The position numbers and the translations under genes were made by a program. Below the pieces are notes generated by a model that saw only the letters and a list, made by a program, of their open reading frames with translations, ran no database searches and had not been told where the DNA came from. A stretch of DNA of 64,000 nt from assembly GCF_002117105.1 (NCBI RefSeq), contig NZ_CP019343.1:3162001-3226000 (forward strand). Direction: 5' to 3'. Numbering within the stretch: the stretch's first letter is position 1; each line of letters starts with the position of its first letter. The DNA is from Oceanicoccus sagamiensis. Its GTDB lineage: Bacteria; Pseudomonadota; Gammaproteobacteria; Pseudomonadales; Dasaniaceae. Positions 12,814 to 28,020 of the stretch are shown here, piece by piece.

Positions 12814-15800
12814 ATGACACTAGCTGCCTTACGCCATCAGATTCGCCAGTTAACCCATCAAGACGAGCATCAGGCGGTGGAATACTTACTGGCTATTGCC
12901 AGTACTGACGAGGTAAGCCGTGAACAGATATTATCGCAATCGCGAGACTTGGTCAGTCAGTGTCGCAGTGATAAATCGGGCAAGGGCACCATGGATGCGT
13001 TTTTACAGGAGTTTGGCCTGTCCAATAAAGAAGGTGTCGCTCTAATGTGTTTGGCCGAGGCTTTATTGCGGGTGCCTGATGGCATTACCGCCGACCGCTT
13101 AATTGCTGAAAAAATCAGCCAGGGTAATTGGTCTTGCCACCGCGGCAAGTCAGACTCTCTATTTGTGAATGCCTCCACTTGGGGCTTAATGCTAACCGGG
13201 AAAATAGTCGCTCTGGATACGGAGATTACCCAACAAACTGATAGTTGGGTGACTCAATTGGTTAGCAAGGTCAGTGAACCTGTTGTGCGCAGGGCGGTAT
13301 TGCAAGCCATGAGGATTATGGGCGGGCAATATGTATTGGGCCGCACGATTGATGAAGGTATGCAGCGCGGTGTTAAAGAAAACCCTGCAAGGACACGCTT
13401 TTCTTTTGATATGTTGGGGGAGGGCGCGCGGACTGAGGCGGATGCAGAGAACTATTATCAGGCTTACTATCAGGCGATTAGCCGCATTGGTAAAAACAAC
13501 GCTAAGACGACGGTAGTGGGTGCCAATGGTATTTCCGTAAAACTCTCAGCGCTTTATTGCCGCTATCACTATTCGCACCAGAACGGTGTTATGTCCGTAT
13601 TGCTACCGCGTATCAAAGCCTTATGTCTATGTGCAAAAGAGTATGGTTTAGGCCTAAGTATTGATGCAGAAGAGTCAGAGCGTTTAGATATGTCTCTGGA
13701 TATTTTTGCATCGCTGGCCGAGGATAAAGAACTCGCTGACTGGGAGGGTTTGGGTTTTGTATTACAGGCCTATCAAAAACGCGCGCCGGCGGTGGCTGAT
13801 TGGTTAATTGCCCTGGGGCAGGAAAGCGGGCGTCGTTTAATGGTGCGTCTGGTTAAAGGGGCTTATTGGGATGCGGAAATTAAACATGCTCAGGAACAGG
13901 GGTTTAAAGATTACCCCGTCTTTACCCGTAAGGCCAATACCGATTTATGTTATCAGGTTTGTGCTGAAAAATTATTAGCAGCCACAGAGGCTATCTATCC
14001 GCAATTTGCTACCCATAATGCCTATACCGTATGCCTGGTGTTGGCGATAGCTAAAGGCAAAGACTTTGAGTTTCAGCGCCTGCATGGGATGGGAGAATTG
14101 CTCTATAAGCATCTCGAGCTGACTGCTAAGCCTGCGCCATTACGGGTATATGCTCCGATTGGCCAGCACCAGGATTTATTGCCCTATTTAGTCCGTCGCC
14201 TATTGGAAAACGGTGCCAATAGTTCTTTTGTAAACCGTTTTTTAGATCGGCAAACCCCAGTAGAAGCATTATTAGATGATGTCTATACCCAGGTGCTGCA
14301 ATACCGACCCTACCGCCATCCCAATATTCCTTTGCCGCCAGGTATTTATCGGGCGGCCGGAGATAAGCGGGATAATGCCAAAGGGATTGACCTGGATAAC
14401 CCTATTGCGGTGGAACGCTTGCTGACCGTGATTAATACAGACAACAGCGACCGGCAAGCCAGCGCTATTGTCGGTGGTGAGCAATGTGGCGGCGTATTTG
14501 AAGAAGTGGTTTCTCCGGCAGATAGACACCGTGTCGTCGGTCATATTGCTGAAGCACAAGATAAGGATGTGCAGCGCGCTTTACTGTTAGCCCATACTGC
14601 GCAACCGGATTGGCAGGGTCTGAGCGGAGAGTTTAGAGCGGTTATTCTGGAGCGGATGGGGGATATCTTAGAGCAGCACACTGAAGAATTAATGGCCATT
14701 ATCGTTGCCGAAGCAGGGCGTACTATTGCTGATGCCTTATCAGAAGTCCGAGAGGCAGTAGATTTTTGTCGTTATTATGCACAGTCAGCCAGATATTATT
14801 TTTCTGGCCATAGCAATTCATTAACCGCATGCGGTACGTTTTTATGTATTAGCCCGTGGAATTTCCCTTTAGCGATTTTTACCGGTCAGATTGCCGCCGC
14901 TTTAGCAGCGGGTAATAGCGTGCTGGCAAAACCTGCCGAGCAAACCCCCTTGGTGGCAGCCAGAGCTGTGGCTTTATTTCACAGTGTGGGAGTGCCGGTT
15001 GATAATTTACATCTACTACCCGGCGATGGTGCCCGTATCGGCGCGACGTTATTATCCGACCCACGTCTATCCGGCGTAGCCTTTACTGGTTCAACAGAAA
15101 CCGCACAGATTATTTCTCGGCAATTAGCGTTACGTGAGGGTAACCCCGTGCCATTAATTGCTGAAACCGGTGGCCAGAATGCCATGATTGTTGACTCAAC
15201 TGCGCTACCAGAACAGGTCGTTGATGATGTGATTGCCTCAGCATTTTTAAGTGCAGGCCAGCGTTGTTCGGCACTGCGTGTGCTCTATATACAGGAGGAT
15301 ATTGCCGATAAAGTCTTATCCATGTTGGCCGGTGCTATGGATGCTTTAAGCCTGGGTGATCCGGCTAAGTTATCAACGGATATTGGCCCAGTGATTGATA
15401 AAGAGGCTTTGCAAGGTTTGCAGAGCCATATAAAACATCTGCATAAAACCGCCAGATTTATTGCTACCGTCACTGTAGAAGGGGAGCAAGCTTTGGCGGG
15501 ATATTTTTTCGCGCCCCATGTCTTTGAAATTCAATCCTTAAACGAACTGCCCCGGGAAGTCTTTGGGCCTGTACTACATGTGGTTCGTTATCGTGCCTGT
15601 GATTTAAAGCAAGTCCTGGATGAAATTAATCAAAGTGGTTATGGCTTGACGCTGGGGGTGCATAGTCGGATTGAAGCAGTAGCGGAGTATATTTACCGGC
15701 AGACAAGGGTAGGTAATACCTATATCAACCGCAATACGGTGGGGGCTGTCGTGGGTGTTAATCCATTCGGTGGTCATGGTTTGTCGGGTACTGGGCCAAA

Positions 15801-16431
15801 AGCTGGCGGGCCCTATTATTTATTGCGGTTTGCCAATACAGTGCCGGATGATAAGGGAGGTGCTGTTGATGAGGATGCAGTACAGGTATGTCAAAAGCTG
15901 ATTGCTTTATCCGAGCAGTATTTACAGCACTCCGAGCTACTGCCTGGCCCTACCGGCGAAGAGAATAGACTTACTTTATACGGCCGTGGACGTATTGTTT
16001 GTGTTGTTCGCGATGCCTATACAGACGCCAATATAGCTCAGTTGCTTGCTTTGCCTCTGCTAGCTGGCTGCTCGGTACAGGTGGCGGCTGAACCGGCTAG
16101 TCGGGCTAAAGTAACTCGCATAATCAAACATGTTAAAAATACGGTGTTAGACTTTATTAGTCTTTCAGAGCTTGAGGATTGCCTGGTCAGTGCAGAAATT
16201 GCTGGTGTCAGCCTGTTATATGATGACCCGGACTTGGCCTTGGTAAAACAGCGATTAGCTGCTCGTCAAGGGGCTCTTTTACCGCTGGTTGTGTTACCGA
16301 GCCATACTCAGTGGATAAATAATAAGTATCAATCTTTAGCCTTGTTGATGCGTTTTGTTATCGAGAAAACAAGAACGGAAAATTTAGTGGCAAGAGGCGG
16401 GAATACTCAGTTATTTAATTTAACTGAGTAG
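12814..16431 (+). CDS. putA: Bifunctional proline dehydrogenase / P5C dehydrogenase
   Basis: Oxidises proline to glutamate: FAD-dependent proline dehydrogenase passes electrons to the quinone pool and the NAD aldehyde dehydrogenase half finishes. The PRODH barrel includes LVKGAYWDAEIKHAQ and FATHNAYTV. The P5CDH half has FLCISPWNFPLAIFTGQ, ETGGQNAMIVD and the nucleophilic Cys in SAGQRCSALRVLY, then NPFGGHGLSGTGPKAGG. A C-terminal domain of about 190 residues follows. The ATG at 12814 is chosen because GGAG at 12801-12804 is correctly spaced for it; a TTG at 12799 would extend by five residues but place the ribosome site inside the gene. The protein (about 1205 residues) begins where the PRODH arm starts and lacks the ribbon-helix-helix domain of E. 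coli PutA, so it cannot self-repress. The divergent Lrp gene is the likely regulator. Confidence 0.95.
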   Translation: MTLAALRHQIRQLTHQDEHQAVEYLLAIASTDEVSREQILSQSRDLVSQCRSDKSGKGTMDAFLQEFGLSNKEGVALMCLAEALLRVPDGITADRLIAEKISQGNWSCHRGKSDSLFVNASTWGLMLTGKIVALDTEITQQTDSWVTQLVSKVSEPVVRRAVLQAMRIMGGQYVLGRTIDEGMQRGVKENPARTRFSFDMLGEGARTEADAENYYQAYYQAISRIGKNNAKTTVVGANGISVKLSALYCRYHYSHQNGVMSVLLPRIKALCLCAKEYGLGLSIDAEESERLDMSLDIFASLAEDKELADWEGLGFVLQAYQKRAPAVADWLIALGQESGRRLMVRLVKGAYWDAEIKHAQEQGFKDYPVFTRKANTDLCYQVCAEKLLAATEAIYPQFATHNAYTVCLVLAIAKGKDFEFQRLHGMGELLYKHLELTAKPAPLRVYAPIGQHQDLLPYLVRRLLENGANSSFVNRFLDRQTPVEALLDDVYTQVLQYRPYRHPNIPLPPGIYRAAGDKRDNAKGIDLDNPIAVERLLTVINTDNSDRQASAIVGGEQCGGVFEEVVSPADRHRVVGHIAEAQDKDVQRALLLAHTAQPDWQGLSGEFRAVILERMGDILEQHTEELMAIIVAEAGRTIADALSEVREAVDFCRYYAQSARYYFSGHSNSLTACGTFLCISPWNFPLAIFTGQIAAALAAGNSVLAKPAEQTPLVAARAVALFHSVGVPVDNLHLLPGDGARIGATLLSDPRLSGVAFTGSTETAQIISRQLALREGNPVPLIAETGGQNAMIVDSTALPEQVVDDVIASAFLSAGQRCSALRVLYIQEDIADKVLSMLAGAMDALSLGDPAKLSTDIGPVIDKEALQGLQSHIKHLHKTARFIATVTVEGEQALAGYFFAPHVFEIQSLNELPREVFGPVLHVVRYRACDLKQVLDEINQSGYGLTLGVHSRIEAVAEYIYRQTRVGNTYINRNTVGAVVGVNPFGGHGLSGTGPKAGGPYYLLRFANTVPDDKGGAVDEDAVQVCQKLIALSEQYLQHSELLPGPTGEENRLTLYGRGRIVCVVRDAYTDANIAQLLALPLLAGCSVQVAAEPASRAKVTRIIKHVKNTVLDFISLSELEDCLVSAEIAGVSLLYDDPDLALVKQRLAARQGALLPLVVLPSHTQWINNKYQSLALLMRFVIEKTRTENLVARGGNTQLFNLTE

Positions 16432-16455
16432 TTGTAATCGTGATGAGTAAGACTT

Positions 16456-16490
16456 AAAGATACAGGGGATTATGTACCGCTATCTTTTTT
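16456..16490 (+). terminator. Possible intrinsic terminator after putA
   Basis: AAAGATA (16456-16462) pairs with TATCTTT (16481-16487) around an 18-base loop and is followed by T residues to 16490. It lies 25 bases after the putA stop. The loop is long and the stem A/T-rich, so strength is uncertain. Confidence 0.45.
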
Positions 16491-16566
16491 GTCGCTTGGT
16501 TTTTACAGTGATGTAGGTTACCTTTGGCTGCAGAATAATAAATCGCCAACTTCTCAATGGACTGCT

Positions 16567-18081
16567 ATGAACTCTCTTACCCTAAAACCGCTATTTTTCT
16601 CTGTCTTTATTACCTTTTTATCACTTTGGCTGACGGCCTGTGATAGTAGTGATAGTGATTCTTCCTGCTCGGTTAATGGTGATACTGATGGCCACTTATT
16701 ACGCTGTGGTGAGTTAGATATTGCAGTCGATGGTGAGGGGTACTTTATTGTATCTGACAATAGTGGCGGCAGCTTCTATAGCCGCTCTGTCACACTAAAC
16801 ATTGAAGATGAGCAATTGCTAACCGCTGAGGGTTATAAGGTCAATGGGTTCTTGTCAGTCGGCAATATGCGTGTGGGTGGAACGCCAGTCGCCATTGACC
16901 TTGGTGATGTTGAAATCACAACGGTTGATATTGATGAGGCTGGTGTTATTAGTGCTCAGGTGTCAGGTACCACTACCGTCATTGCGCAGATTGCTCTGGC
17001 CAAATTTATAGCCCCCTATTTTCTGGAAGAGTCAGTAGAGGGGGTGTATAGCCAAACCGCAGCATCGGGTGAGCCAGTTGTTGGGACTGCCGGGTCTGGC
17101 GAGCTGGGTGCTTTAGCGGTAGGTGACGTCGAGGTTGAGGCTATTGATAATGCTTTCGACTTATCGGTCAGTGGCGATGGTTATTTTGTTTTGGATAATC
17201 AGGTAGAAGAAATCTATGCGCAGAATATTCGTTTGGCCAAAACCTTGTCCGGCTCGCTGGCCCTGCTTGATACTGAGCCTGAAGATGCCTACCAGCCTCA
17301 GGCCTATTTAGCCGATAGCAACGGTGATATCACCAACATTATCGATGATTTGTTATTCCCCTTGTCTGATTTAGCGCCACAGCAAACAGCTGCAGTCGCA
17401 TTAGAGGTCAATCTGGATTCACGCAGCGGCCTACCAGCTGCCACGCCATTTAATGCACTTGATAGCACCTCATTTACCCACCAGTTTTCTGTTGATATCT
17501 ACGATAGCCGGGGGCAGAGCCATACCCTGAACCTCTATTTTGTTAACACAGCGGCTGCCGGTGTTTGGCAACTCTATCTTTATATAGCCGATGATAATGG
17601 TACCCCGCAAAATGTGATTGCCATTGGTAGTGGTTATTTTGAAGTGACCTTTTCAGCAGAAGGGGCTCTGGAAACTACTGTGCCAACTGAGCTAACCGTT
17701 GATGGTTGGAACCCGGAAGGCGCTGCGCAGTCCTCTTCCAGTGGAGCCACCGCCGATGTGTCAGATTTTAGTGTGTCTCTGGATGGCAGTACTGAGGCGG
17801 GTAGCGATTTTGCCGCGCAGTCGGTTGAACAGGATGGCTTTGCTTCGGGCTCATTAGTTAGCCTGGAATTTGATAGCTGCGGTTTGTTTTATGCCAGCTA
17901 TAGCAACGGTGAGACTATGGTCTTGGGTCAATCAGCCTTGGCTGTATTTGCAGCGCCTTCGGCTTTGGCGTCTGCCGGTGATGGCCTTTTTCAGGCCACA
18001 GCCGAGTCTGGTGCTGCGGACTATGGTGTCGCCTGTGAGACTGATTTTGGCGAGATTACCGGTGATATTATCAATCCGTGA
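16567..18081 (+). CDS. Lipoprotein made of FlgG-like and FlgE-like modules
   Basis: A 504-residue protein, starting at the internal ATG 16567 because this gives a complete lipoprotein signal: hydrophobic segment then LWLTAC, with Cys25 the lipidation site. After a Ser/Asp linker come two units built like flagellar rod and hook proteins. Unit A (about 45-180): ELDIAVDGEGYFIV, YSRSVTLN, LLTAEGYKVNGF, IAQIALAKFIAPYFLE, YSQTAASGEPVVGTAGSGELG, matching the order of motifs in FlgG. Unit B (about 190-500): FDLSVSGDGYFVLD, a FlgE-like middle part FSVDIYDSRGQSHTLNLYFV, VEQDGFASGSLVSLEF, YSNGETMVLGQSALAVFAAP, ATAESGAADYG. The terminal D0 helices that polymerise rod and hook are absent at both ends. No flagellar gene is nearby. 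Its role is unknown; a surface or periplasmic scaffold is a guess. Confidence 0.75.
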   Translation: MNSLTLKPLFFSVFITFLSLWLTACDSSDSDSSCSVNGDTDGHLLRCGELDIAVDGEGYFIVSDNSGGSFYSRSVTLNIEDEQLLTAEGYKVNGFLSVGNMRVGGTPVAIDLGDVEITTVDIDEAGVISAQVSGTTTVIAQIALAKFIAPYFLEESVEGVYSQTAASGEPVVGTAGSGELGALAVGDVEVEAIDNAFDLSVSGDGYFVLDNQVEEIYAQNIRLAKTLSGSLALLDTEPEDAYQPQAYLADSNGDITNIIDDLLFPLSDLAPQQTAAVALEVNLDSRSGLPAATPFNALDSTSFTHQFSVDIYDSRGQSHTLNLYFVNTAAAGVWQLYLYIADDNGTPQNVIAIGSGYFEVTFSAEGALETTVPTELTVDGWNPEGAAQSSSSGATADVSDFSVSLDGSTEAGSDFAAQSVEQDGFASGSLVSLEFDSCGLFYASYSNGETMVLGQSALAVFAAPSALASAGDGLFQATAESGAADYGVACETDFGEITGDIINP

Positions 18082-18094
18082 TTGAATACTTTAG

Positions 18095-18685
18095 CTAGCT
18101 TGTGACAACCAGATAACAGACCAGCTCCTTACGCCCACTATTCTCAATCGTATGCTGTAAATCAGCGCGGTAGTGGGCGGAATCCCCCTCCGATAAATTA
18201 CAGTCGGTATCACCGGCGATCACTCTGGCACTGCCACTGGCAACCGTTAACAGCTCTTTAGTGCCCTCATAATGTGGGGCGCTGGCCAGGCGGGCTTTGG
18301 GGGCGATTCTTAACTCATAAAACTCTATATTTTTTTCCATATGCAGCGGAGAGAGCGTGCGGATTTGGCATTCATCATCAGAGCGAAACAGATTACTGGC
18401 ATCGTCACCATGGACCACTTCAATTGGGGATGCGGCCCAGGGCTGGTCAACCAACTCGCCAATACTGATCCCAAAAGCCTGAGCAATACGGAAGGTTACC
18501 GTCAGAGTAGGGTTGGCCTGGCCCCGTTCTATCTGGCTTAACATCGACCGGCTAACCCCGGAGGCTGTGGCTAACTGTTCTAATGTCAGCTTGTTCTTTT
18601 TGCGCAGCTCAGTAACCCGGCTACAGAGCACCTGGCTGGTCTCGTCCGGTGTTGGTGCGGGGTTGCTGTTCTTTTTATTTGGCAT
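18095..18685 (-). CDS. XRE family regulator with cupin domain
   Basis: A 196-residue regulator: an N-terminal XRE/HTH_3 domain (ELRKKNKLTLEQLATASGVSRSMLSQIERGQANPTLTV, residues 28-66) joined to a C-terminal cupin (about 115-190) ending in the metal-site-like SEGDSAHYRADLQHTIEN. This architecture (PuuR/SutR-like) usually represses a nearby catabolic operon, with the cupin binding a small ligand. It is divergent from tdh-kbl with 148 bases between them, and that gap contains an inverted repeat. Control of threonine catabolism is the natural inference. The effector is not known. Confidence 0.88.
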   Translation of the reverse strand: MPNKKNSNPAPTPDETSQVLCSRVTELRKKNKLTLEQLATASGVSRSMLSQIERGQANPTLTVTFRIAQAFGISIGELVDQPWAASPIEVVHGDDASNLFRSDDECQIRTLSPLHMEKNIEFYELRIAPKARLASAPHYEGTKELLTVASGSARVIAGDTDCNLSEGDSAHYRADLQHTIENSGRKELVCYLVVTS

Positions 18686-18714
18686 ATTATTTCTCTTATG
18701 TCGGATTAATATCT

Positions 18715-18745
18715 TGCATATAGGAATTTATAATTCTATGATGCA
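18715..18745. promoter_or_regulatory. Inverted repeat between XRE regulator and tdh
   Basis: TGCATATAGGAAT (18715-18727) and ATTCTATGATGCA (18733-18745) form an imperfect inverted repeat around TTATA. Paired parts are TGCAT/ATGCA and GAAT/ATTC. It lies 29 bases upstream of the XRE start and about 88 bases before tdh, a suitable place for an operator shared by the divergent genes. Confidence 0.5.
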
Positions 18746-18833
18746 GGAAATTTATCTCATATAGTAAACAAGGTGGAGTTTAACAGCTTGGCTGTAAAGG
18801 TCCACATCCGGTGGTTATTAAAAGGAACTTAAA

Positions 18834-19859
18834 ATGAAAGCGTTGGTAAAAAAGCAGGGGGGTGAGGGGCTCTGGCTGCAAGATGTCCCTGAACCCGAAA
18901 TCGGTATTAATGATGTGCTGATTAAAATCAAACGTACCGCGATCTGCGGTACGGACTTACATATCTATAACTGGGATGACTGGGCACAAAAGACGATCCC
19001 CGTGCCGATGACCGTAGGCCATGAGTTTGTCGGTGAAATTGTTGAGGTGGGTAGTAATGTCAATGACTACCGCGCAGGGCAAATTGTCTCCGGTGAGGGG
19101 CATGTGGTTTGCGGTCGCTGCCGAAACTGTATGGCGGGGCGGCGGCATTTATGTGCACAGACCAGTGGTATTGGTGTAGATCGACCGGGCGCGTTTGCAG
19201 AATATTTATCCCTACCCATGGCCAATGTCTGGGAACATCGAGAAGGTATTGACCTGGATATTGCCTCTTTATTCGACCCCTTAGGTAATGCAGTCCATAC
19301 CGCTTTGCAATATGACCTGCTGGGTGAAGATGTGTTAATTACCGGGGCTGGGCCTATTGGTGCCATGGCTGCCGCCGTATGCCGACATGCAGGTGCGCGC
19401 CATGTGGTGATTACCGATATTAACCCCCAGCGATTAGAGCTGGCGAAAAAACTGGGCGCTACCTATACCGTTAATCCCGTGCAGGAAGACTTGGCTGATG
19501 TCAGAAAGAAACTGGGCATGAGTGAGGGTTTTGATGTAGGTCTGGAAATGTCCGGTAACCCTTCAGCCTTTAAAGATCTGTTAGCCAATATGTGTCATGG
19601 CGGCAAGGTTTCGATTCTGGGTATCCCCAGCGAGTCTCTGGCGATCGATTGGAATACGGTGATCTTTAATATGCTGACACTAAAGGGGATTTATGGCCGT
19701 GAAATGTATGAAACCTGGTACAAAATGTCAGTTATGATTGAGTCCGGTTTGGATATTTCACAGGTGATAACACACCGCTTGCATTACACCGAGTTTCAGC
19801 AGGGTTTTGATGCCATGAATGCCGGTGAAGCCAGCAAAGTGATTTTAAATTGGGAATAA
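18834..19859 (+). CDS. tdh: L-threonine 3-dehydrogenase
   Basis: Oxidises L-threonine with NAD to 2-amino-3-oxobutanoate, which Kbl then cleaves. The 341-residue length is that of E. coli Tdh. The MDR zinc site is visible in [17 protein letters not shown] and [13 protein letters not shown]. The structural zinc lobe has four Cys in [16 protein letters not shown], and the NAD fold has [15 protein letters not shown]. The C-terminus includes [14 protein letters not shown], characteristic of threonine dehydrogenase. Fifteen bases separate it from kbl and the two form an operon. The upstream region is shared with a divergent XRE-cupin regulator. Confidence 0.97.
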
Positions 19860-19874
19860 CACAAGGAGATAATT

Positions 19875-21062
19875 GTGTACGGTGATTTTCAACAACATCT
19901 TGCCAGTGAGCTTGCTGCCATAGAAGCTGCCGGGCTTTATAAGCGCGAGCGAGAAATTACCTCGCCACAGGGTGCTCATATCGGTGTTGCCAGCGGTGAA
20001 GTACTTAACCTCTGCGCCAATAATTATTTGGGTCTTGCCCAGCATCCGGCGGTCAATGCCGCCGCCACACAGGGTTTAGAACAGTGGGGTTATGGTATGG
20101 CCTCGGTGCGTTTTATTTGCGGCACGCAAACGTTGCATACACAACTTGAAGAAAAACTCAGTCAGTTTTTGGGTATGGAGTCGACCATTTTGTACCCTTC
20201 CTGTTTTGATGCCAACGGCGGTTTATTTGAAACCCTACTGGGTGAAGAGGATGCCATTATTTCTGATGAGCTTAACCATGCCAGCATTATTGACGGGGTA
20301 CGTTTATGTAAAGCTAAGCGCTTCCGTTATAAAAATAATAATATGGCTGACCTTGAGGCACAATTACAGGCAGCGGATCAGGCGGGCGCCCGTTTTAAAT
20401 TAATTAGCACCGACGGTGTTTTTTCCATGGATGGCTATATTGCCCAACTGGATAAAATTTGTGACCTTGCGGATAAGTATCAGGCTTTGGTGCATTTTGA
20501 TGATGCCCATGCCACCGGCTTTGTTGGTGCTAATGGTCGCGGTACTCATGAGTATCGCGGCTGTATGGATAGGGTGGATATTATTACCGGTACCTTAGGC
20601 AAAGCCTTGGGTGGAGCCAGTGGTGGCTTTACCAGTTCACGTAAAGAAGTCGTGGATTTATTACGCCAGCGCTCACGCCCTTATTTGTTTTCCAATACCG
20701 TTGCGCCGCCGGTGGTGGCAGGTGCGATTAAAGCCTTGGATATCGTCAGTGAATCCAGTGAGCTTAGAGATCGGCTGCAGAAAAATACCGAATATTTCAG
20801 GGCGGGTTTAACCGAGTTGGGTTTTGACTTATTGCCAGGTGAACATGCCATCGTACCGGTGATGTTGCACGATGCAGCATTGGCAGCCCAATTTGCAGAA
20901 GCGATGTTGGTCGAAGGAATCTATGTGGTGGCGTTTTCTTTTCCTGTAGTGCCAAAAGGCAAGGCGCGTATTCGAACCCAAATGTCGGCGGCTTTAACAC
21001 AGGAGGACCTTGATATGGCTATTGTCGCTTTTGCAAACGTTAAACAACAGTTGGGCATATAA
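19875..21062 (+). CDS. kbl: 2-amino-3-ketobutyrate CoA ligase (glycine C-acetyltransferase)
   Basis: A PLP enzyme that splits 2-amino-3-oxobutanoate with CoA into glycine and acetyl-CoA, completing threonine breakdown begun by Tdh. At 395 residues it is close to E. coli Kbl. Landmarks are [46 protein letters not shown] and the PLP lysine in [15 protein letters not shown]. It starts with GTG at 19875, six bases after an AAGGAG ribosome site at 19863-19868. It is the last gene of the operon; a pair of palindromic repeats about 40 bases downstream may help end transcription. Confidence 0.96.
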
Positions 21063-21101
21063 AACAGCCAGCCACAGAATCAGTCTGAGCCACAATCATT
21101 T

Positions 21102-21172
21102 GTAGGGTGGATTATAATCCACCGCGCCCAGCGATGAGCCGCCATAACCGGTGGATAATAATCCACCCTGCG
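21102..21172. repeat. Dispersed intergenic palindrome pair, locus 2
   Basis: Two copies of the window's GTAGGGTGGATTATAATCCACC element in opposing orientation: a perfect copy (palindrome 21106-21123) and a slightly diverged one, GGTGGATAATAATCCACC (21150-21167), followed by CTGCG. The arms can also pair with each other as a larger hairpin. The rest of the 327-base gap after kbl (to 21389) shows no gene apart from the palindrome at 21377-21394. Confidence 0.85.
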
Positions 21173-21376
21173 GGCTTGAGTTTATCTACAGTATTTGTTT
21201 CCGAGCATTAATGCGCGAAGGCGGGATTCGTGCATTGCAGGCCACCGCAACTATTGTAAAACAACGACCATACCTGTAAGTTGGCTGCTAGCTTAAAAGG
21301 ATTAAGCCTCCCAAAATTTTCAGCGACAAGGATGACGCTATGAGCCTACCTTTTCTCTTTTTTAACCTCCTTCTGT

Positions 21377-21394
21377 TGCAAACTATAGTTTGCA
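21377..21394. promoter_or_regulatory. Perfect 18-base palindrome upstream of the toxin gene
   Basis: TGCAAACTATAGTTTGCA is perfectly symmetric and ends 49 bases before the toxin ATG at 21444. Type II toxin-antitoxin operons are autorepressed by the antitoxin at such sites, so this is the probable operator of the pair downstream. Confidence 0.6.
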
Positions 21395-21443
21395 GAAGTA
21401 TGGTGCCGGTGTGCTTATGATTGAGCTTGCATACCCCTGTCCC

Positions 21444-21755
21444 ATGATTATCTATTCTTGCCAGAATGGTACAGAGCCTTTTACTGAGTGGTTTAATGAA
21501 ATATCCGATACAAGGGATCGAAGAAGAATTCTGTCCCGACTACGCCGTATGGAGAAGGGTTATTGGGGAGATTATAAGTCACTTAAAAAGGGTGCTTATG
21601 AGCTAAGGTTATTTTTCGGCCCGGGTTATCGACTGTATTTTGGTGTTGATCGGGGGTAGTTAGTGGTGTTGTTACTCGGTGGTGACAAGCGCTCACAAAG
21701 CAAAGATATCGACAGAGCCGCCCGTTATTGGCAGGAGTATTTAAGCAATGAGTAA
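21444..21755 (+). pseudogene. RelE/HigB-type toxin interrupted by an in-frame TAG
   Basis: From the ATG at 21444 the frame encodes a RelE/ParE superfamily toxin of the addiction-module killer type: GTEPFTEWFNEI, RRILSRLRRMEKGYWGDYK, then AYELRLFFGPGYRLYFG. A TAG at 21657-21659 stops translation after residue 71. The same frame continues without any shift as LVVLLLGGDKRSQSKDID and then WQEYLSNE to a TAA at 21753-21755, exactly the family's C-terminal strand and helix. The full protein would be about 102 residues. A CAG or similar codon changed to TAG is the simplest explanation. Loss of the last strand and helix should inactivate the toxin. It overlaps the antitoxin start by 8 bases, the usual arrangement for this family. 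Confidence 0.8.
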
Positions 21756-22059
21756 ACGCAATTACAGAACGTTGGATAAGCTGGAAGAAAACTATTTTCG
21801 CGAACACCCGGAAGAAATTGAAATTTACCTGAAAGAAATTTTTGAGCTCTATGCCGAGGATGGTGATTCCGCCGTGCTGCTAGCTTCGCTGCGAGTCATA
21901 GCGAAAGTCAAAGGTATTAGCGCCTTGGCAAAAGAAACTGGCATGACCAGGCAGGGTTTGCAGAAAGCGCTCTCTAGCAAGGGAAACCCTCGGTTGGATA
22001 ATGTAAATGCCATTATCCGGTCTATCGGATTTCAGTTGGTTCCGCAGCGCAGGGTGTAA
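21748..22059 (+). CDS. HTH antitoxin of the HigA-like addiction module
   Basis: A 103-residue protein. The N-terminal half is helical and charged. The C-terminal half holds a helix-turn-helix, ALAKETGMTRQGLQKALSSKGNPRLDNVNAIIRSIG, in the arrangement of the antitoxin paired with addiction-module killer toxins. It should bind the toxin and, via its HTH, the palindrome at 21377-21394. The gene is intact although the toxin frame before it carries a stop codon. The frame overlaps the toxin end by 8 bases, so translation may have been coupled. Downstream, the convergent MarR gene ends five bases after this stop. Confidence 0.82.
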   Translation: MSKRNYRTLDKLEENYFREHPEEIEIYLKEIFELYAEDGDSAVLLASLRVIAKVKGISALAKETGMTRQGLQKALSSKGNPRLDNVNAIIRSIGFQLVPQRRV

Positions 22060-22064
22060 TAAGT

Positions 22065-22529
22065 TTATTCCTCCAGTTCTCCTGCATGGCTATACAAACG
22101 ATCAATCAACTGACTAAATACTTCCCGCTCCTGTTTATTAAAGCAAGTCAGTAAATCCTGTTCATACTTATAAGAAATTGGCACCATCTCATCATAAACC
22201 GACAAGCCAGTTTTTGTCAGCATCAAAATCGACCGGCGCTTATCGTCTTTATCAAAGCTGCGAGTAATCAATTTTCTCGATAACAGCTTACTAATCGCCC
22301 GGCTTAATATCGACTTTTCAATCTGGGTTCGGGCAGAGACTTCGTCCGCAGAAGCCTCAGGGTATTCACCGAGTACAGCCATAATGCGCCATTCAGTAAT
22401 CGATAGTGCAAACTTGCCCTTATAAGTCTGGGCAATGATACCGCTAACTTTATTAGAGAGGATAGATAGCCGGTAGGGCAGGTAGCGTTCCAGAGTCAGG
22501 ATTTGTTGTTTGTTGATTTTTTTAGTCAT
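22065..22529 (-). CDS. MarR family transcriptional regulator
   Basis: A 154-residue MarR protein with the winged helix visible: LSITEWRIMAVLGEYPEASADEVSARTQIEKSILSRAISKLLSRKLI, then the beta-wing RSFDKDDKRRSILMLTKTG. The flanking helices (residues 10-35 and 115-150) form the dimer interface. MarR proteins often control aromatic degradation genes. The hppD promoter 870 bases away carries two TAGTTG-N6-CAACTA-type repeats of the size MarR dimers use, making hppD a candidate target. That link is inference. The gene is not in an operon with the TumA-like gene upstream, from which it is separated by 32 bases, though readthrough is possible. Confidence 0.88.
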   Translation of the reverse strand: MTKKINKQQILTLERYLPYRLSILSNKVSGIIAQTYKGKFALSITEWRIMAVLGEYPEASADEVSARTQIEKSILSRAISKLLSRKLITRSFDKDDKRRSILMLTKTGLSVYDEMVPISYKYEQDLLTCFNKQEREVFSQLIDRLYSHAGELEE

Positions 22530-22561
22530 GGTGTTTTCACACTTTATTTTTATTGGGCAGC

Positions 22562-22918
22562 CTAAATTGCATAGCGAATATCAAACTGTGTTGTTTTGGC
22601 AATAGGCCGAACCTTTCTACTATCGTATTTTTTCAGCTCAACAATACCGTATTTTTCCATGGTCTTCAGGGTGCGGCTAAGGTTGCCGGGTTTGCGCCCA
22701 CTTAATTCCGCCAGTTCGCTTATCGTCTGAGGATGATATTCATTTATCTGCTTAAGTAAGCGCACATTATTATCGCTCAGCACTTCGCTTAATGATTTGA
22801 TAGAGCTAAACCATACCTTGGGTTCCCCCGCTTTTACGTTTAACTTACCGGCGGCAATGGCTTTCACACGCTCCTGAAACTGCTTGCGTGGCATAATGCC
22901 TATTTTTAATGTTTTCAT
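22562..22918 (-). CDS. Winged-helix antitoxin, TumA-like
   Basis: A 118-residue protein with a MarR/ArsR-like winged helix: NNVRLLKQINEYHPQTISELAELSGRKPGNLSRTLKTMEKYGIVEL. The N-terminus MPRKQFQERVKAIAAGKL is typical of the transcriptional regulators encoded after TumE/DUF6516 toxins. Its start codon overlaps the upstream toxin-like frame by 4 bases (ATGA), the usual translational coupling of a toxin-antitoxin pair. It probably binds the 15-base palindrome at 23290-23304 to repress the operon. The gene looks intact while its toxin partner is frameshifted. Confidence 0.75.
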   Translation of the reverse strand: MKTLKIGIMPRKQFQERVKAIAAGKLNVKAGEPKVWFSSIKSLSEVLSDNNVRLLKQINEYHPQTISELAELSGRKPGNLSRTLKTMEKYGIVELKKYDSRKVRPIAKTTQFDIRYAI

Positions 22919-23248
22919 TCTGATAGTTCCTCAATGATTCGGTTTACTTCAGTAAAAAAGTCTTCCAGCAATTGTTGGGCACTTGTGAAGGTGTAAAGTA
23001 CGCCTTTGTCTGTCTCTGATCGATGTTGGTGATCAAAGCTTATATGCCTGCCACCAAACCCTTGTTTGCCTCTACTTTGTTGGGGCTTAACGGCATGTGC
23101 ATTATCAAACCTCATAATGCGCTGGTTGAAGCGGTTATGCAGTGGCAGTAACCTTATAAGCCTCAATTTTGTACCAATAACCATTTTCTTCAGTATATTC
23201 AGTACCATGCAGCTCTAATAATATATCCAATCCTGAGTCGAGACTCAT
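22915..23248 (-). pseudogene. TumE/DUF6516-like toxin, frameshifted
   Basis: The C-terminal part (MRFDNAHAVKPQQ, then FGGRHISFDHQHRS, SAQQLLEDFFTEVNRIIEEL) matches the TumE/DUF6516 toxin family. An ATG at 23208 lies in that frame but gives a basic, unrelated start. Translating from the ATG at 23248 in the other frame yields LDSGLDILLELHGTEYTEEN and then GYWYKIEAYKV, the family's true N-terminus, ending at a TAA at 23135-23137. The expected segment between the two halves is shorter than in relatives, so a small deletion that was not a multiple of three is the likely cause, rather than a one-base error. The toxin should be inactive; the antitoxin gene downstream is intact. Confidence 0.7.
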
Positions 23249-23289
23249 ATAGCTATCCTTGCTAATGCTTATCTTTTTACATCATATGT

Positions 23290-23304
23290 ATCATCTGATG
23301 ATAA
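23290..23304. promoter_or_regulatory. Palindrome upstream of the TumE/TumA-like pair
   Basis: TATCATCTGATGATA has 7-base arms around a single central base and lies 42 bases before the toxin start at 23248 (minus strand). It is a plausible autoregulatory operator for the TumA-like winged-helix protein. Confidence 0.45.
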
Positions 23305-23397
23305 GTAAAGCCCAGAGTATCACTTTGCTTTCCCTTCTGAGGGTAAGGCGTTAGCGGCCTGACTTATATGCTGTTACAGCTGCTTATCAAAACAGGC

Positions 23398-23444
23398 TTG
23401 ACATTAGTTGTTATTACAACCAATAATAGTTGCTATTACAACTA
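23398..23444 (+). promoter_or_regulatory. Promoter with two tandem operator repeats upstream of hppD
   Basis: A -35 box TTGACA (23398-23403) is 18 bases from AATAAT (23422-23427), five of six matches to TATAAT. Overlaying it are two near-identical 18-base dyads: TAGTTGTTATTACAACCA (23405-23422) and TAGTTGCTATTACAACTA (23427-23444). They are 22 bases apart, two helical turns. One fills the -35/-10 spacer and the other covers the start of transcription, so bound protein would repress. The hppD ATG is 66 bases downstream. Confidence 0.65.
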
Positions 23445-23509
23445 AACAGAGCTTCAAGCTCTTTTACAATTATTGTTTATAGGATAAGTGCATAACGCGG
23501 GAGAGCAAA

Positions 23510-24601
23510 ATGACTGACTTGTTTGATAATCCAATGGGGTTGGATGGATTTGAATTTGTAGAGTTTTCAGCGCCGGATAAAGGTGTGCTTGAACCAGTAT
23601 TTGAGATGATGGGATTTACCCATGTGGCCAACCATCGCAGCAAAGATGTACTGCTCTTCAGGCAGGGCGATATCAACTTTATTATTAACTATGAACCTAA
23701 TAGCTACGCCTATTTCTTTACTCAGGAACATGGCCCTTCTGCCTGTGGTATGGCCTTTAGAGTCCATGATGCCCGCAAAGCCTATGAACGTGCCATTGAA
23801 ATGGGCGCACAGCCGGTGGATATTCCCGTAGGCCCGATGGAGCTACGACTTCCTGCCATCAAAGGTATTGGCGGTGCGCCGCTGTATTTAATTGATCGTT
23901 ATAAGCAGGGTGCTTCCATCTACGATATTGATTTTGACTATATCGAAGGGGTCGATCGCAACCCTGTAGGCTGTGGTTTTAAAGTTGTCGACCACTTAAC
24001 CCATAATGTCTATCGCGGCAGAATGGATTATTGGGCTAAATTCTACGAGAGTATTTTTAACTTCCGTGAAATTCGCTACTTCGATATCAAAGGCGAATAT
24101 ACCGGCTTGCTGTCAAGAGCTATGTCCGCCCCCGATGGAAAGATTCGTATACCCTTGAATGAAGAAGCCTCACAAGGTGGTCAGATTGAAGAGTTTCTAA
24201 TGGCCTATAATGGCGAAGGTATTCAACATATCGCCTTTGAAACCGATGATCTGCCAGGCAGCTGGGATCAACTAAAAGCCCGGGGTGTGCCTTTTATGAC
24301 TGCGCCCCCGGATACCTACTATGCCATGCTGGAAGAGCGTTTGCCGGGCCATGGTGAACCGGTTGCAGAGCTACAATGCCGGGGTATTCTACTGGATGGT
24401 TCCACCCAAAATAATGATCCCCGTTTATTACTGCAAATTTTTTCCGAGACCTTAATTGGCCCGGTATTTTTTGAATTTATTCAACGCAAACGGGATGAAG
24501 GCTTTGGCGAAGGTAATTTTAAAGCGCTATTTGAATCCATAGAACGCGATCAGGTTAACCGCGGCACCATCGATACCCGTCAGGCAGGGGAGAGCGCGTA
24601 A
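23510..24601 (+). CDS. hppD: 4-hydroxyphenylpyruvate dioxygenase
   Basis: Converts 4-hydroxyphenylpyruvate and O2 to homogentisate and CO2 with non-haem iron. The 363-residue length is normal. Two VOC halves are present; the three iron ligands are in the C-terminal half: His in [12 protein letters not shown], His in [12 protein letters not shown] and Glu in [27 protein letters not shown] is the conserved C-terminal helix. The stop overlaps the start of the next gene (TAATG), so the two are translationally coupled. It begins a five-gene tyrosine catabolic run with aminotransferase, fumarylacetoacetase and maleylacetoacetate isomerase. A strong promoter with tandem dyads precedes it. Confidence 0.97.
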
Positions 24602-25125
24602 TGAATATCCAGCGTATTCATCATGTGGCCTACCGCTGCCATAACGCTAAAGAAACCGTGGCGTTTTACCAGCAGGTAATGAATATGGACTTCCAACTGG
24701 CTATCGCTGAAAACGAAGTCCCCTCAACCAAAGCCCCTGACCCTTATATGCATGTCTTTCTCGATGCGGGCAATGGAAATGTGCTGGCATTTTTTGAGCT
24801 GCCCAACTCACCGGCCATGGATAAAGACCGCAATACACCAGATTGGGTGCAACATATTGCCTTTGAAGTGGAAAGTGTTGAGGCCTTGCTGGAAGCCAAA
24901 GCTTCCGTAGAGGCGGAAGGTATTACGGTCATCGGCCCGGTAGAACATACCATTTTTAAATCCATCTATTTTTTTGACCCCAATGGCCACCGTTTAGAGT
25001 TGGCCGCCAATACCGCCAAGCCGGGTATGCTGGAGCGCCTGCATAAACTCGCCCCCGCGATGATAGAAGAATGGGACCAAACCAAGCGCGCCCCGCAACA
25101 TGCGGCGTGGTTGCACCAGTCATAA
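24601..25125 (+). CDS. VOC (glyoxalase/extradiol dioxygenase fold) protein in tyrosine cluster
   Basis: A 174-residue VOC protein, coupled to hppD by a TAATG overlap and 12 bases before fumarylacetoacetase. Possible metal ligands of the VOC 2-His-1-Glu type are His in RIHHVAYRC near residue 8, His in WVQHIAFEVES near 81 and Glu in PNGHRLELAAN near 131. The substrate is not known. No cupin-type homogentisate dioxygenase (HmgA) is present in this cluster, although the enzymes before and after that step are. A role as a non-orthologous ring-opening dioxygenase is therefore a testable idea. Alternatives are an isomerase or an accessory binding protein, and hmgA could lie elsewhere in the genome. 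Confidence 0.82.
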   Translation: MNIQRIHHVAYRCHNAKETVAFYQQVMNMDFQLAIAENEVPSTKAPDPYMHVFLDAGNGNVLAFFELPNSPAMDKDRNTPDWVQHIAFEVESVEALLEAKASVEAEGITVIGPVEHTIFKSIYFFDPNGHRLELAANTAKPGMLERLHKLAPAMIEEWDQTKRAPQHAAWLHQS

Positions 25126-25137
25126 AAGGAAATTGTA

Positions 25138-26114
25138 ATGAAATTAGCTTCATTAAATTATGGCCGCGATGGCCGCTTGGTGGTGGTTAATAATGCCTTG
25201 GACCGCTATACCAGTGCTACCGATATTGCGCCTACCTTGCAGGCAGCCTTAGATGATTGGGCTAACTGCGAAGTCCCTTTACGTGATTTATTTCAACAGT
25301 TAGAAAACCATACCATCAAAGGTGAAGCCTTTGAGCAAAGACACTGCGCTTCACCGTTACCGCGCGCCTATCACTGGGCCGATGCTAGCGCCTATGTCAA
25401 CCATGTTGAGCTGGTGCGCAAAGCCCGCAATGCAGAAATGCCGGCAAGCTTTTGGACTGACCCTTTAATCTATCAGGGCGGTTCCGATACCTTTATTGGC
25501 CCCTATGAAGATATCGCCATGGCAGATGAAAGCTGGGGTATTGATTTTGAAGCGGAAGTGGCTGTTGTACTGGATGATGTACCCATGGGAGTTTCGGCAG
25601 ATAATGCCGCAGAGTATATCAAGCTGATTATGCTGGTTAATGATGTTAGCTTGCGCAATCTAATCCCCGGTGAGCTGGCCAAAGGTTTTGGTTTTTATCA
25701 GGCCAAGCCCTCATCCTCATTCTCCCCTGTCGCCATTACTCCCGATGCACTGGGTGATGCATGGCAGGATGGGAAAGTGCATTTGCCATTAAGTGTTACG
25801 CTTAACGACCAACTGATCGGTGCCCCTAATGCCGGTTTGGATATGACTTTTAATTTCCCCAGCTAATTGCCCATGCCGCTAAATCGCGTCCGCTAGGCGC
25901 TGGCACCATTATCGGCTCCGGTACTGTTTCCAATCTTGATCGCTCCAGCGGTTCCTGTTGTCTGGCAGAAGTCAGAATGCTTGAAACTATAGCCGATGGA
26001 AAACCCACGACCGAATTTATGCGCTTTGGTGACAGGGTGGTGATTAATATGCTGGATACAGATAACCAAAACCTTTTCGGTGATATTAACCAGCGTGTAG
26101 TGCGTTACCCTTAG
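25138..26114 (+). CDS. Fumarylacetoacetate hydrolase family (one-base frameshift)
   Basis: Hydrolyses fumarylacetoacetate to fumarate and acetoacetate, the last step of tyrosine breakdown. The first frame (25138-25866) covers the N-terminal domain and most of the catalytic core: FIGPYEDIAMADESWGIDFEAEVAVVLDD, with Glu metal ligands, and IKLIMLVNDVSLRN. It ends at a TAA just after TFNFPS. Adding one C in the CCCC run at 25857-25860 restores the expected continuation QLIAHAAKSRPLGAGTIIGS, then GSGTVSNLDRSSGS, FMRFGDRVVINML and INQRVVRYP, ending at 26112-26114. Total is about 325 residues, right for this bacterial form. The break looks like a homopolymer undercall, since three other genes in the window have the same kind of lesion. 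Confidence 0.88.
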
Positions 26115-26129
26115 GGATAGGAGCTCACC

Positions 26130-27374
26130 ATGGATAAGGCATTACTGGGTACTGGCACTTTTACAGGTCAGGACCCTATCTTTCGTTTATTACAACAATA
26201 CCGTCAGGACCAACGCCCCTATAAGCTGGATTTGGGTATTGGTGTCTACCGCGATCATCTTAATCGCTCGCCCATCTTTGCTGCGATAAAACAAGCAGAA
26301 CAATGGCGCGTCGATAATGAAGAAGATAAAGCCTATATCGGCCCCTTGGGTGATATCGCCTTTTGCCAGGCGATTAGTGAATTAGCCTTGGGCCAAACAC
26401 TGGCGCAAACCTTATCGCAGCGCATAGCCTATGCCCAAACCCCGGGTGGAGTAGGCGCACTGCGTTTAGCGTTTGAGTTATTAAAATCCACCAACCCGGA
26501 TGGCACCCTTTGGGTAAGTGATACCACCTGGCAAGTCCATCACCCCATAGCTGAGGGGGCAGGCTTGCCCGTTAATACCTATGCCTACTACCAGCGCGAA
26601 CTAGGGCGTTTGCCCTTTACTGATTTGCTGGAACAATTAATGGCAGCAAAGGCCGGTGATGCGATTTTATTACAGGCCGGTTGTCATAACCCCACCGGTC
26701 TGGATTTTTCATTAGAGCAGTGGCAGCTATTAGCAGAGCTATGCCAGCAAAAGCAATTACTGCCGGTTATCGATATGGCCTACCACGGTTTAGGGGCGGG
26801 CCTTGAAATAGAACAGCAAGGTTTACAGCTAATGGCTAAATCCCTTAGCGAATTAATTCTCTGCTATACCTGCTCAAAAAACTTTGGTTTATACCGCGAT
26901 AGAACCGGTATGGTAATGGCCTTATCCGCCACACCTGAACATAGGCCCGTACTAGAACAACAATGGATGCAATTGGCTACCCAACATTATTTTACGCCTC
27001 CTGCTCACGGTGCCAGTTTGGTAAAGCGTATCCTGCAACAACCAGCGTTACGTACCCTCTGGTGTGAAGAGTTGGAGGCCATCCGCCAGCGTTTAATTAC
27101 CATCCGTTTACAGCTAACAAAAGCCCTAAGTGCTGCGATACCTCAACGTCAGTGGGATTTTTTATTACAGGGTAGCGGTATGTTTGCCATGTTCCCCCTA
27201 AGCAGCGTAGAAATATTAGCCTTGCAAAGCCATCACGCAATTTATATTGTGGATAACGGGCGGGTTAACCTATCCGGTATCAACGAGAAAAACCTACCAG
27301 TCTTAGTAGCCGCGATTGCCGAACGGATTACGGATACTGAGCTTGAGGAATTAGAGAATGCTGCAGCTATATAG
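26130..27374 (+). CDS. Aromatic-amino-acid/aspartate aminotransferase, class I
   Basis: A 414-residue PLP aminotransferase of the AspC/TyrB group: LDLGIGVYRDHLNRSPIF, AYIGPLGDIAFCQAI, QAGCHNPTGLDFSLEQW, PVIDMAYHGLGAGLE, the PLP lysine in CYTCSKNFGLYRDRTGM and the substrate-carboxylate Arg near VDNGRVNLSGI. In this cluster it most likely makes 4-hydroxyphenylpyruvate (or phenylpyruvate) from tyrosine for HppD. It overlaps the maiA start by 17 bases in another frame, indicating tight coupling. Aspartate specificity cannot be excluded. Confidence 0.9.
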   Translation: MDKALLGTGTFTGQDPIFRLLQQYRQDQRPYKLDLGIGVYRDHLNRSPIFAAIKQAEQWRVDNEEDKAYIGPLGDIAFCQAISELALGQTLAQTLSQRIAYAQTPGGVGALRLAFELLKSTNPDGTLWVSDTTWQVHHPIAEGAGLPVNTYAYYQRELGRLPFTDLLEQLMAAKAGDAILLQAGCHNPTGLDFSLEQWQLLAELCQQKQLLPVIDMAYHGLGAGLEIEQQGLQLMAKSLSELILCYTCSKNFGLYRDRTGMVMALSATPEHRPVLEQQWMQLATQHYFTPPAHGASLVKRILQQPALRTLWCEELEAIRQRLITIRLQLTKALSAAIPQRQWDFLLQGSGMFAMFPLSSVEILALQSHHAIYIVDNGRVNLSGINEKNLPVLVAAIAERITDTELEELENAAAI

Positions 27375-27996
27375 TTACTATCGTTCATCCGCCGCTTACC
27401 GCGTCCGTATTGCCCTGGCCTTAAAAGGACTGGCCTTTGAGTCTATTCCAGTTAACCTGCTGGAGCAGGAAAATTATCGACAAAGCTATCTTGATAAAAA
27501 CCCGCAGGGTTTAGTACCAGCCTTGGATATTGGTGGGCAGATACTTAACCAGTCGCTGGCCATTATGGAATATCTGGAAGAAGTTAACCCCAAGCCCGCC
27601 TTATTACCCGCTGACCCTATCGAAAGAGCACAGATCAGATCGCTAGCCTATGAGGTCGCTATTGATATCCATCCTATTAATAATCTACGGATTATTAATT
27701 TTCTGACCAGTGAGTGGCAACATAGCGAAAGTAACAAGTTTGAATGGTTACACCACTGGATGACTACCGGTTTTGCAGCAATAGAAAACCGTTTACAGCA
27801 GGGCAGTCAGGGCCAGTTTTGTTTTGGTGATACCGTGACATTGGCTGATATCTGCCTAATCCCGCAAGTCTATAATGCCCACCGTTTTGAATGCCCTATG
27901 GATGACTTTCCGCTAATTAATGCTATTGTTAGCCACTGTAATACGTTGGATGCCTTTAAGCGTGCCGCACCAGAGGCGCAACCTGATAGCCCTTAA
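27358..27996 (+). CDS. maiA: Maleylacetoacetate isomerase (zeta-class GST)
   Basis: Isomerises maleylacetoacetate to fumarylacetoacetate with glutathione. 212 residues, the usual size. The zeta-class signature is YSYYRSSAAYRVRIALALKGL, followed by NPQGLVPALDIGG and LNQSLAIMEYLEE in the glutathione site and an all-helical C-domain with VTLADICLIPQVYNAHRF. It is the last gene of the tyrosine run, which includes hppD and fumarylacetoacetase. The start overlaps the aminotransferase gene by 17 bases. Confidence 0.95.
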   Translation: MLQLYSYYRSSAAYRVRIALALKGLAFESIPVNLLEQENYRQSYLDKNPQGLVPALDIGGQILNQSLAIMEYLEEVNPKPALLPADPIERAQIRSLAYEVAIDIHPINNLRIINFLTSEWQHSESNKFEWLHHWMTTGFAAIENRLQQGSQGQFCFGDTVTLADICLIPQVYNAHRFECPMDDFPLINAIVSHCNTLDAFKRAAPEAQPDSP

Positions 27997-28020
27997 ACCA
28001 TTGGCTAGCATGAGTAACCT

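Follow-up and report, generated by a model that had tools for sequence, protein, structure and literature searches.

A putative lipoprotein with tandem flagellar hook-type modules and no D0 in Oceanicoccus sagamiensis

The window analysed here, a 64,000-nucleotide stretch of the Oceanicoccus sagamiensis contig NZ_CP019343.1, carries an intact gene (16567–18081, plus strand) for a putative lipoprotein of 504 amino acids. As judged from sequence profiles and a structure model, its body almost certainly comprises two tandem hook-type beta modules, D1 followed by D1–D2–D1, without D0 and behind a lipoprotein signal. We propose, at a probability of about 0.42, that the outer beta domains of the flagellar hook have here been reused as a binding module of the cell envelope, outside the flagellum. 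Rod and hook proteins are familiar as flagellar components that leave the cell through the organelle's type III pathway and are organised around D0 helices. In the present case hook outer domains stand alone behind a lipoprotein signal, full-length in three genomes, of which at least two appear to have drawn on their own lineage's hook gene. The case would illustrate a way in which components of the flagellum are put to use away from it, and it offers a natural D0-less hook protein with which the binding of isolated D1 and D2 could be studied. A survey of the open-access literature, with subscription papers largely outside its scope, found no description of a lipoprotein built from hook modules, in agreement with the preliminary description, which knew of none.

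The reading frame runs uninterrupted from an ATG at 16567 to a stop codon ending at 18081. Residues 1–25 (16567–16641) form a putative signal peptide that ends in the lipobox LTAC with Cys25, noted earlier and recovered here both by direct reading and by pattern, and the cysteine is followed by D-S-S-D-S; lipidation is predicted from this lipobox. A Ser/Asp-rich linker (residues 26–42, 16642–16692) leads into unit 1, a D1-only module of the FlgG/FlgE type (residues about 43–192, 16693–17142), and then into unit 2, a D1–D2–D1 module of the FlgE type (residues about 193–500, 17143–18066). The protein ends in the tail FGEITGDIINP (18046–18078), at the point where FlgE continues into D0. The named motifs DGEGYFIV, YSQTAASGEP (previously given as a YTASGEP-like ending) and YSNGETMVLGQSALA are all found. 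Pfam places the FlgE/F/G D1 domain at residues 53–130 (E 1.9e-10) and FlgE_D2 at 282–425 (E 4.4e-24), so that both the D1 and D2 domains of FlgE are present. NCBIfam places FlgF at 49–166, FlgG at 47–192 and FlgE (PRK05682 equivalog) at 190–500 (E 2.7e-73); the FlgE score of 247.6 bits lies below the curated cut-off of 400 bits, and that for the FlgEFG subfamily (TIGR03506), 176.2 bits, lies above its cut-off of 70.25. The top sequence match in the PDB is Salmonella FlgE (E 7.1e-29). On these profile and database scores the likeness to hook proteins is far beyond chance, and the AlphaFold model (mean pLDDT 82, pTM 0.60, with pLDDT under 50 for residues 1–41) agrees with it, which substantiates the resemblance to FlgG and FlgE that had been read from motifs.

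The preliminary description had two units modelled on FlgG and then FlgE. Two hook-type modules are indeed present and the second is of the FlgE type; the assignment of the first to FlgG is less certain. The fold of unit 1 matches FlgG, which is not distinctive since FlgE minus D2 would look alike. In trees of unit 1, thinned by removing further FlgE, FlgF and FlgG rows, it was placed with FlgE and, in the smaller set, adjoined unit 2 of the same protein (support 85/72); a grouping with FlgG was not rejected (p 0.27). As to its source, rod FlgG or hook FlgE, the trees thus lean to FlgE.

Profile models of the N- and C-terminal parts of D0, built from 43 and 42 canonical FlgE, recovered the organism's own FlgE, itself a training row, at E 1.1e-38 and 3.7e-32. 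They also recovered FlgG, which lies outside the training set, at E 1e-12 or better, and matched FlgF only weakly (E 2e-7 to 0.002). Against the lipoproteins and their flanking DNA they gave nothing better than E 0.36, and the AlphaFold model of the window protein contains no helix of four or more residues, bearing out the earlier statement that both terminal D0 helices are absent. Without D0, the lipoprotein should not polymerise. The export region is absent as well: according to PMC8983047, the N-terminal region of FlgE holds signals for flagellar type III export, and the window protein lacks this region and has a lipoprotein signal in its place.

This combination sets the protein apart from its nearest known relatives. 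FlgH, which forms the L-ring, and other flagellar lipoproteins are likewise lipoproteins of flagellated bacteria; the FlgH gene, read at about 532.5 kb, belongs to the flagellar cluster, and FlgH has no hook modules, unlike the window protein. Whereas the FlgE hook protein (Salmonella FlgE31, PDB 1wlg; 3a69) has D0 and the N-terminal export region, the window protein has neither and adds a front D1 unit, the lipoprotein signal and cysteines in unit 2, and its gene lies outside the flagellar cluster. The distal rod protein FlgG (PDB 6jf2) differs in having D0, and unit 1 is nearer to FlgE than to FlgG in the sequence trees, with the reservation on FlgG stated above.

Full-length counterparts are encoded in two further genomes of the order, G020 and G148, both draft assemblies (81% and 84% complete, 4% contamination). 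Both have LSAC lipoboxes and both modules and lack D0; the pattern of a signal peptide closed by a lipobox, with cysteine at +1, was thus found in all three full-length members, whose mature lengths are 480 residues (window) and 461 and 480 residues (the other two). The edge of contig C178 in G148 carries a fragment (L111:5064–5615, minus strand, 183 aa) in which the last part of a D1 module is followed by another D1 module that stops without D0; by its sequence the fragment represents a second protein of the lipoprotein kind in that genome. The C-terminal motif [IVL]x[GP]D[TI], picked after these sequences had been seen, is present in all four lipoprotein-type sequences by reading and in none of 44 canonical FlgE by pattern. 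Unit 2 holds two cysteines in the window protein and two in the G148 protein, and none in the G020 counterpart or in 44 canonical FlgE regions; those of the first two proteins would fit a periplasmic disulphide.

The lipoprotein is rare and patchy, occurring in 3 of 390 genomes of the order by full-length profile search (E limit 1e-25) and in none of the six congeners searched, one of which is only 64% complete. A profile of the module junction (92 positions, built from four sequences) was run on the same 390 genomes. Its full-length matches are its four source sequences, which score high by construction: the window gene, the G020 gene, and the complete gene and contig-edge fragment of G148. 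All other matches at E 1e-7 or better end within the first 60 of the 92 positions. Among 369 genomes of the class, only the window's own match begins before profile position 175 (E limit 1e-30), and among 398 genomes of the phylum the junction profile matched one, the window's own (E limit 1e-9); the order, class and phylum draws overlap. An alignment scan of named genomes returned a single record, JANQMK010000132.1 from a Pseudomonadales metagenome bin, which may coincide with the G020 counterpart; an earlier scan of named genomes with a single-protein query gave no match.

Turning to the origin of the modules, unit 2 contains a block (residues about 265–450, 17359–17916, plus strand) that includes D2 and follows the FlgE of the organism's own genus. 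In the D2 tree (9 of 47 rows left out as near-copies, as in the unit 2 trees) the window protein groups with own-genus FlgE (98/95), and it is 46% identical to its own FlgE over 141 aa. A WNPEGxxQSSS motif is shared, among 47 rows, only with its own FlgE and that of one congener. When identity was followed in sliding segments, the correspondence was clearest at residues 340–454, where in four segments none of 40 other FlgE reached the mean identity with own-genus FlgE. That mean was reached by three of the 40 at 265–304 and by one at 315–354, by 21 at 290–329, where the own genus is not favoured, and by 30 and 35 at 190–254. Between two aligned pieces, in the D2 region, the own FlgE has some 140 additional aa that the lipoprotein lacks. 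FlgE of this genus is long, with open frames of 565–600 aa in four rows (L036:15045–16742, minus strand, and the FlgE of G001, G003 and G006).

The G148 lipoprotein likewise groups with the FlgE of its own genome in D2 (94/94) and in unit 1 (100/98), where identity is 52.9% to that FlgE and 38.8% to the next, an assignment that presumes that the G148 contigs belong together. From these groupings of D2 and of G148 unit 1 with the resident FlgE we infer that the resident hook gene either gave rise to the lipoproteins or overwrote parts of them; its material appears to have entered them in two or more lineages, whether through parallel origin or because an older family was overwritten. The topology tests were chosen after the trees had been seen and involve long branches. 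For D2, a pair of the window and G020 proteins was rejected (p 0.019) and a clade of the three lipoproteins was not (p 0.138); for unit 1, the clade of three was rejected (p 0.022) and the pair was not (p 0.43). The tree of the whole of unit 2 joined the window and G020 proteins (95/96), with long branches, and three lipoproteins as one clade were not rejected (AU p 0.30). In the best tree of this set the window protein stood apart from the FlgE of its family; joining them was not rejected (p 0.35), and neither was placing the G148 lipoprotein with its own FlgE (p 0.42). An older family is favoured by the shared ends and the whole unit 2 tree, and own-hook material by the D2 and unit 1 trees. 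A further reading is a family of hook-mimicking lipoproteins whose D2 is kept matched to the host's hook through repeated overwriting by the resident flgE, as a dedicated hook-binding partner or decoy; we consider this rather unlikely.

A mosaic in which foreign flanks surround the own-genus block was also considered. Grouping the D1 of unit 2 with own-genus FlgE was rejected in one set (p 0.0185) and not in a smaller one (p 0.107). In a control restricted to canonical FlgE, the row closest in D2 often had a poor rank in D1, 10 of 44 doing worse than the rank of 15 found for the window protein. Nearest rows taken segment by segment are thus noisy, and a mosaic is suggestive only.

The end branch of the window protein in the D2 tree, 1.09 against 0.11–0.31 for own-genus FlgE, bears on two further explanations, both of which we regard as improbable. 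One is that hook surfaces are displayed on the cell as a decoy that absorbs hook-binding phages, antibodies or predators. We are not aware of any phage that binds the hook of this host, and exposure at the surface is presumed. The long branch, the own-genus type of D2 and the lipid anchor signal are in keeping with a decoy, as is the position of D2 outside D0 and D1 in the hook, according to PMC5097172. The other is that flgE was duplicated and the gene is a decaying remnant of this event, under no selection for function; its rare and patchy occurrence and long branches could be cited in favour. However, the 504-codon frame has stayed intact although roughly one amino-acid change per site has accumulated since it separated from own-genus FlgE, and three different genomes retain the lipobox, both modules and a common C-terminal motif.

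The genomic setting separates the gene from the flagellar genes. Among 11 FlgE/F/G-family match pieces in the window's genome, three are the lipoprotein gene itself and eight lie at 530–538 kb (the window starts at 3,162 kb), within a flagellar run at about 520–541 kb named by reading gene starts and partly by profile. The canonical rod genes thus lie 2.6 Mb away along the contig. Reading of the ORF lists of the window revealed no other flagellar gene, so the earlier remark that none is near holds. It extends to the homologues: on the DNA available for the three genomes, no counterpart adjoins flagellar genes by ORF reading, and in G020 and G148 these genes are on contigs other than that of the lipoprotein. 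A search just upstream of the lipoprotein gene with two consensus patterns found no sigma-28-like or sigma-54-like site, and Rfam gave no match in 14000–22000 of the window.

All three genomes nonetheless encode canonical rod genes; FlgE was found in the window's genome (G000) and in G148, and the G020 contig with FlgF and FlgG begins just before FlgF. This raises the possibility of a flagellar accessory lipoprotein whose D1 and D2 faces dock on the cell's own rod and hook where these pass through the periplasm and outer membrane, either forming a collar or retaining loose subunits. That D2 follows the own-genus hook gene is as expected if it fits the own hook. In the C. jejuni hook, segments of D1 contact the L-stretch of neighbouring subunits, according to PMC5097172; the lipoprotein keeps D1, without the L-stretch, and by analogy may keep the same D1 faces, so that in principle D1 lacking D0 might bind genuine axial subunits, a lead only. 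Against such a role, none of the six congeners carries the gene though G001, G003 and G006 have close FlgE in the D2 tree, the gene lies outside the flagellar operon with no flagellar promoter match just upstream, and the extra stretch of the own FlgE is missing. We hold the accessory role to be doubtful, and place it second to reuse outside the flagellum, on account of the patchy, unlinked distribution and of a second exported-looking protein with FlgE D2 in G148.

By reading, that protein (L090:1111–2457, minus strand, contig C450, 448 aa) has a stretch resembling a signal peptide close to its start, and it matches FlgE D2 at E 1.8e-23. It is 52% identical to the G148 FlgE over 258 aa, only its D2 region matched flagellar models, and it would represent another case in which hook material is employed away from the flagellum. 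Reuse outside the flagellum has its own difficulties: the canonical rod genes in all three genomes also fit a flagellar role, the rarity would equally suit a gene that is being lost, and the G020 counterpart has no cysteines in unit 2. If the hook domains are indeed reused as an envelope module, the resident flgE gene would have supplied the parts, and Sec would export the protein, which may be lipidated at Cys25 and sit in the envelope on its short flexible linker. Without D0 it would not join the hook or rod core and might instead provide a membrane-tethered display of hook surfaces, making contacts through the D1 and D2 faces that touch neighbouring subunits in the hook.

Neither a conserved neighbourhood nor a mobile origin was borne out. 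Congener G005 has the downstream regulator and its two metabolic genes, which read as kbl- and tdh-like, with the lipoprotein absent there, in congener G001 putA is directly followed by a regulator, and the neighbours of the G020 and G148 counterparts differ. The protein query matched none of 50,697 phage records, and the alignment query found no match in viral contigs. Among plasmids there were 44 matching records, none covering 80% of the query; among the eight of these 44 that were listed, five matches fell on annotated flgE and three on no listed feature. Adjoining the G148 hook lipoprotein is a gene (L069:7017–7967, minus strand) whose product, by reading, has a lipobox and RCC1-like repeats. 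Elsewhere in the window, positions 22001–28000 show GC skews of -0.019, 0.006 and -0.025 in 2-kb steps, with positive values elsewhere (lowest 0.012 at 32–34 kb), and are possibly an inserted segment; GC is 0.425 at 22–24 kb and again at 30–32 kb. Positions 46416–49222 encode, by reading, an alpha/beta hydrolase and, in an overlapping frame after it, a protein that has a haem-type motif, CALCH, and whose body resembles a PQQ dehydrogenase.
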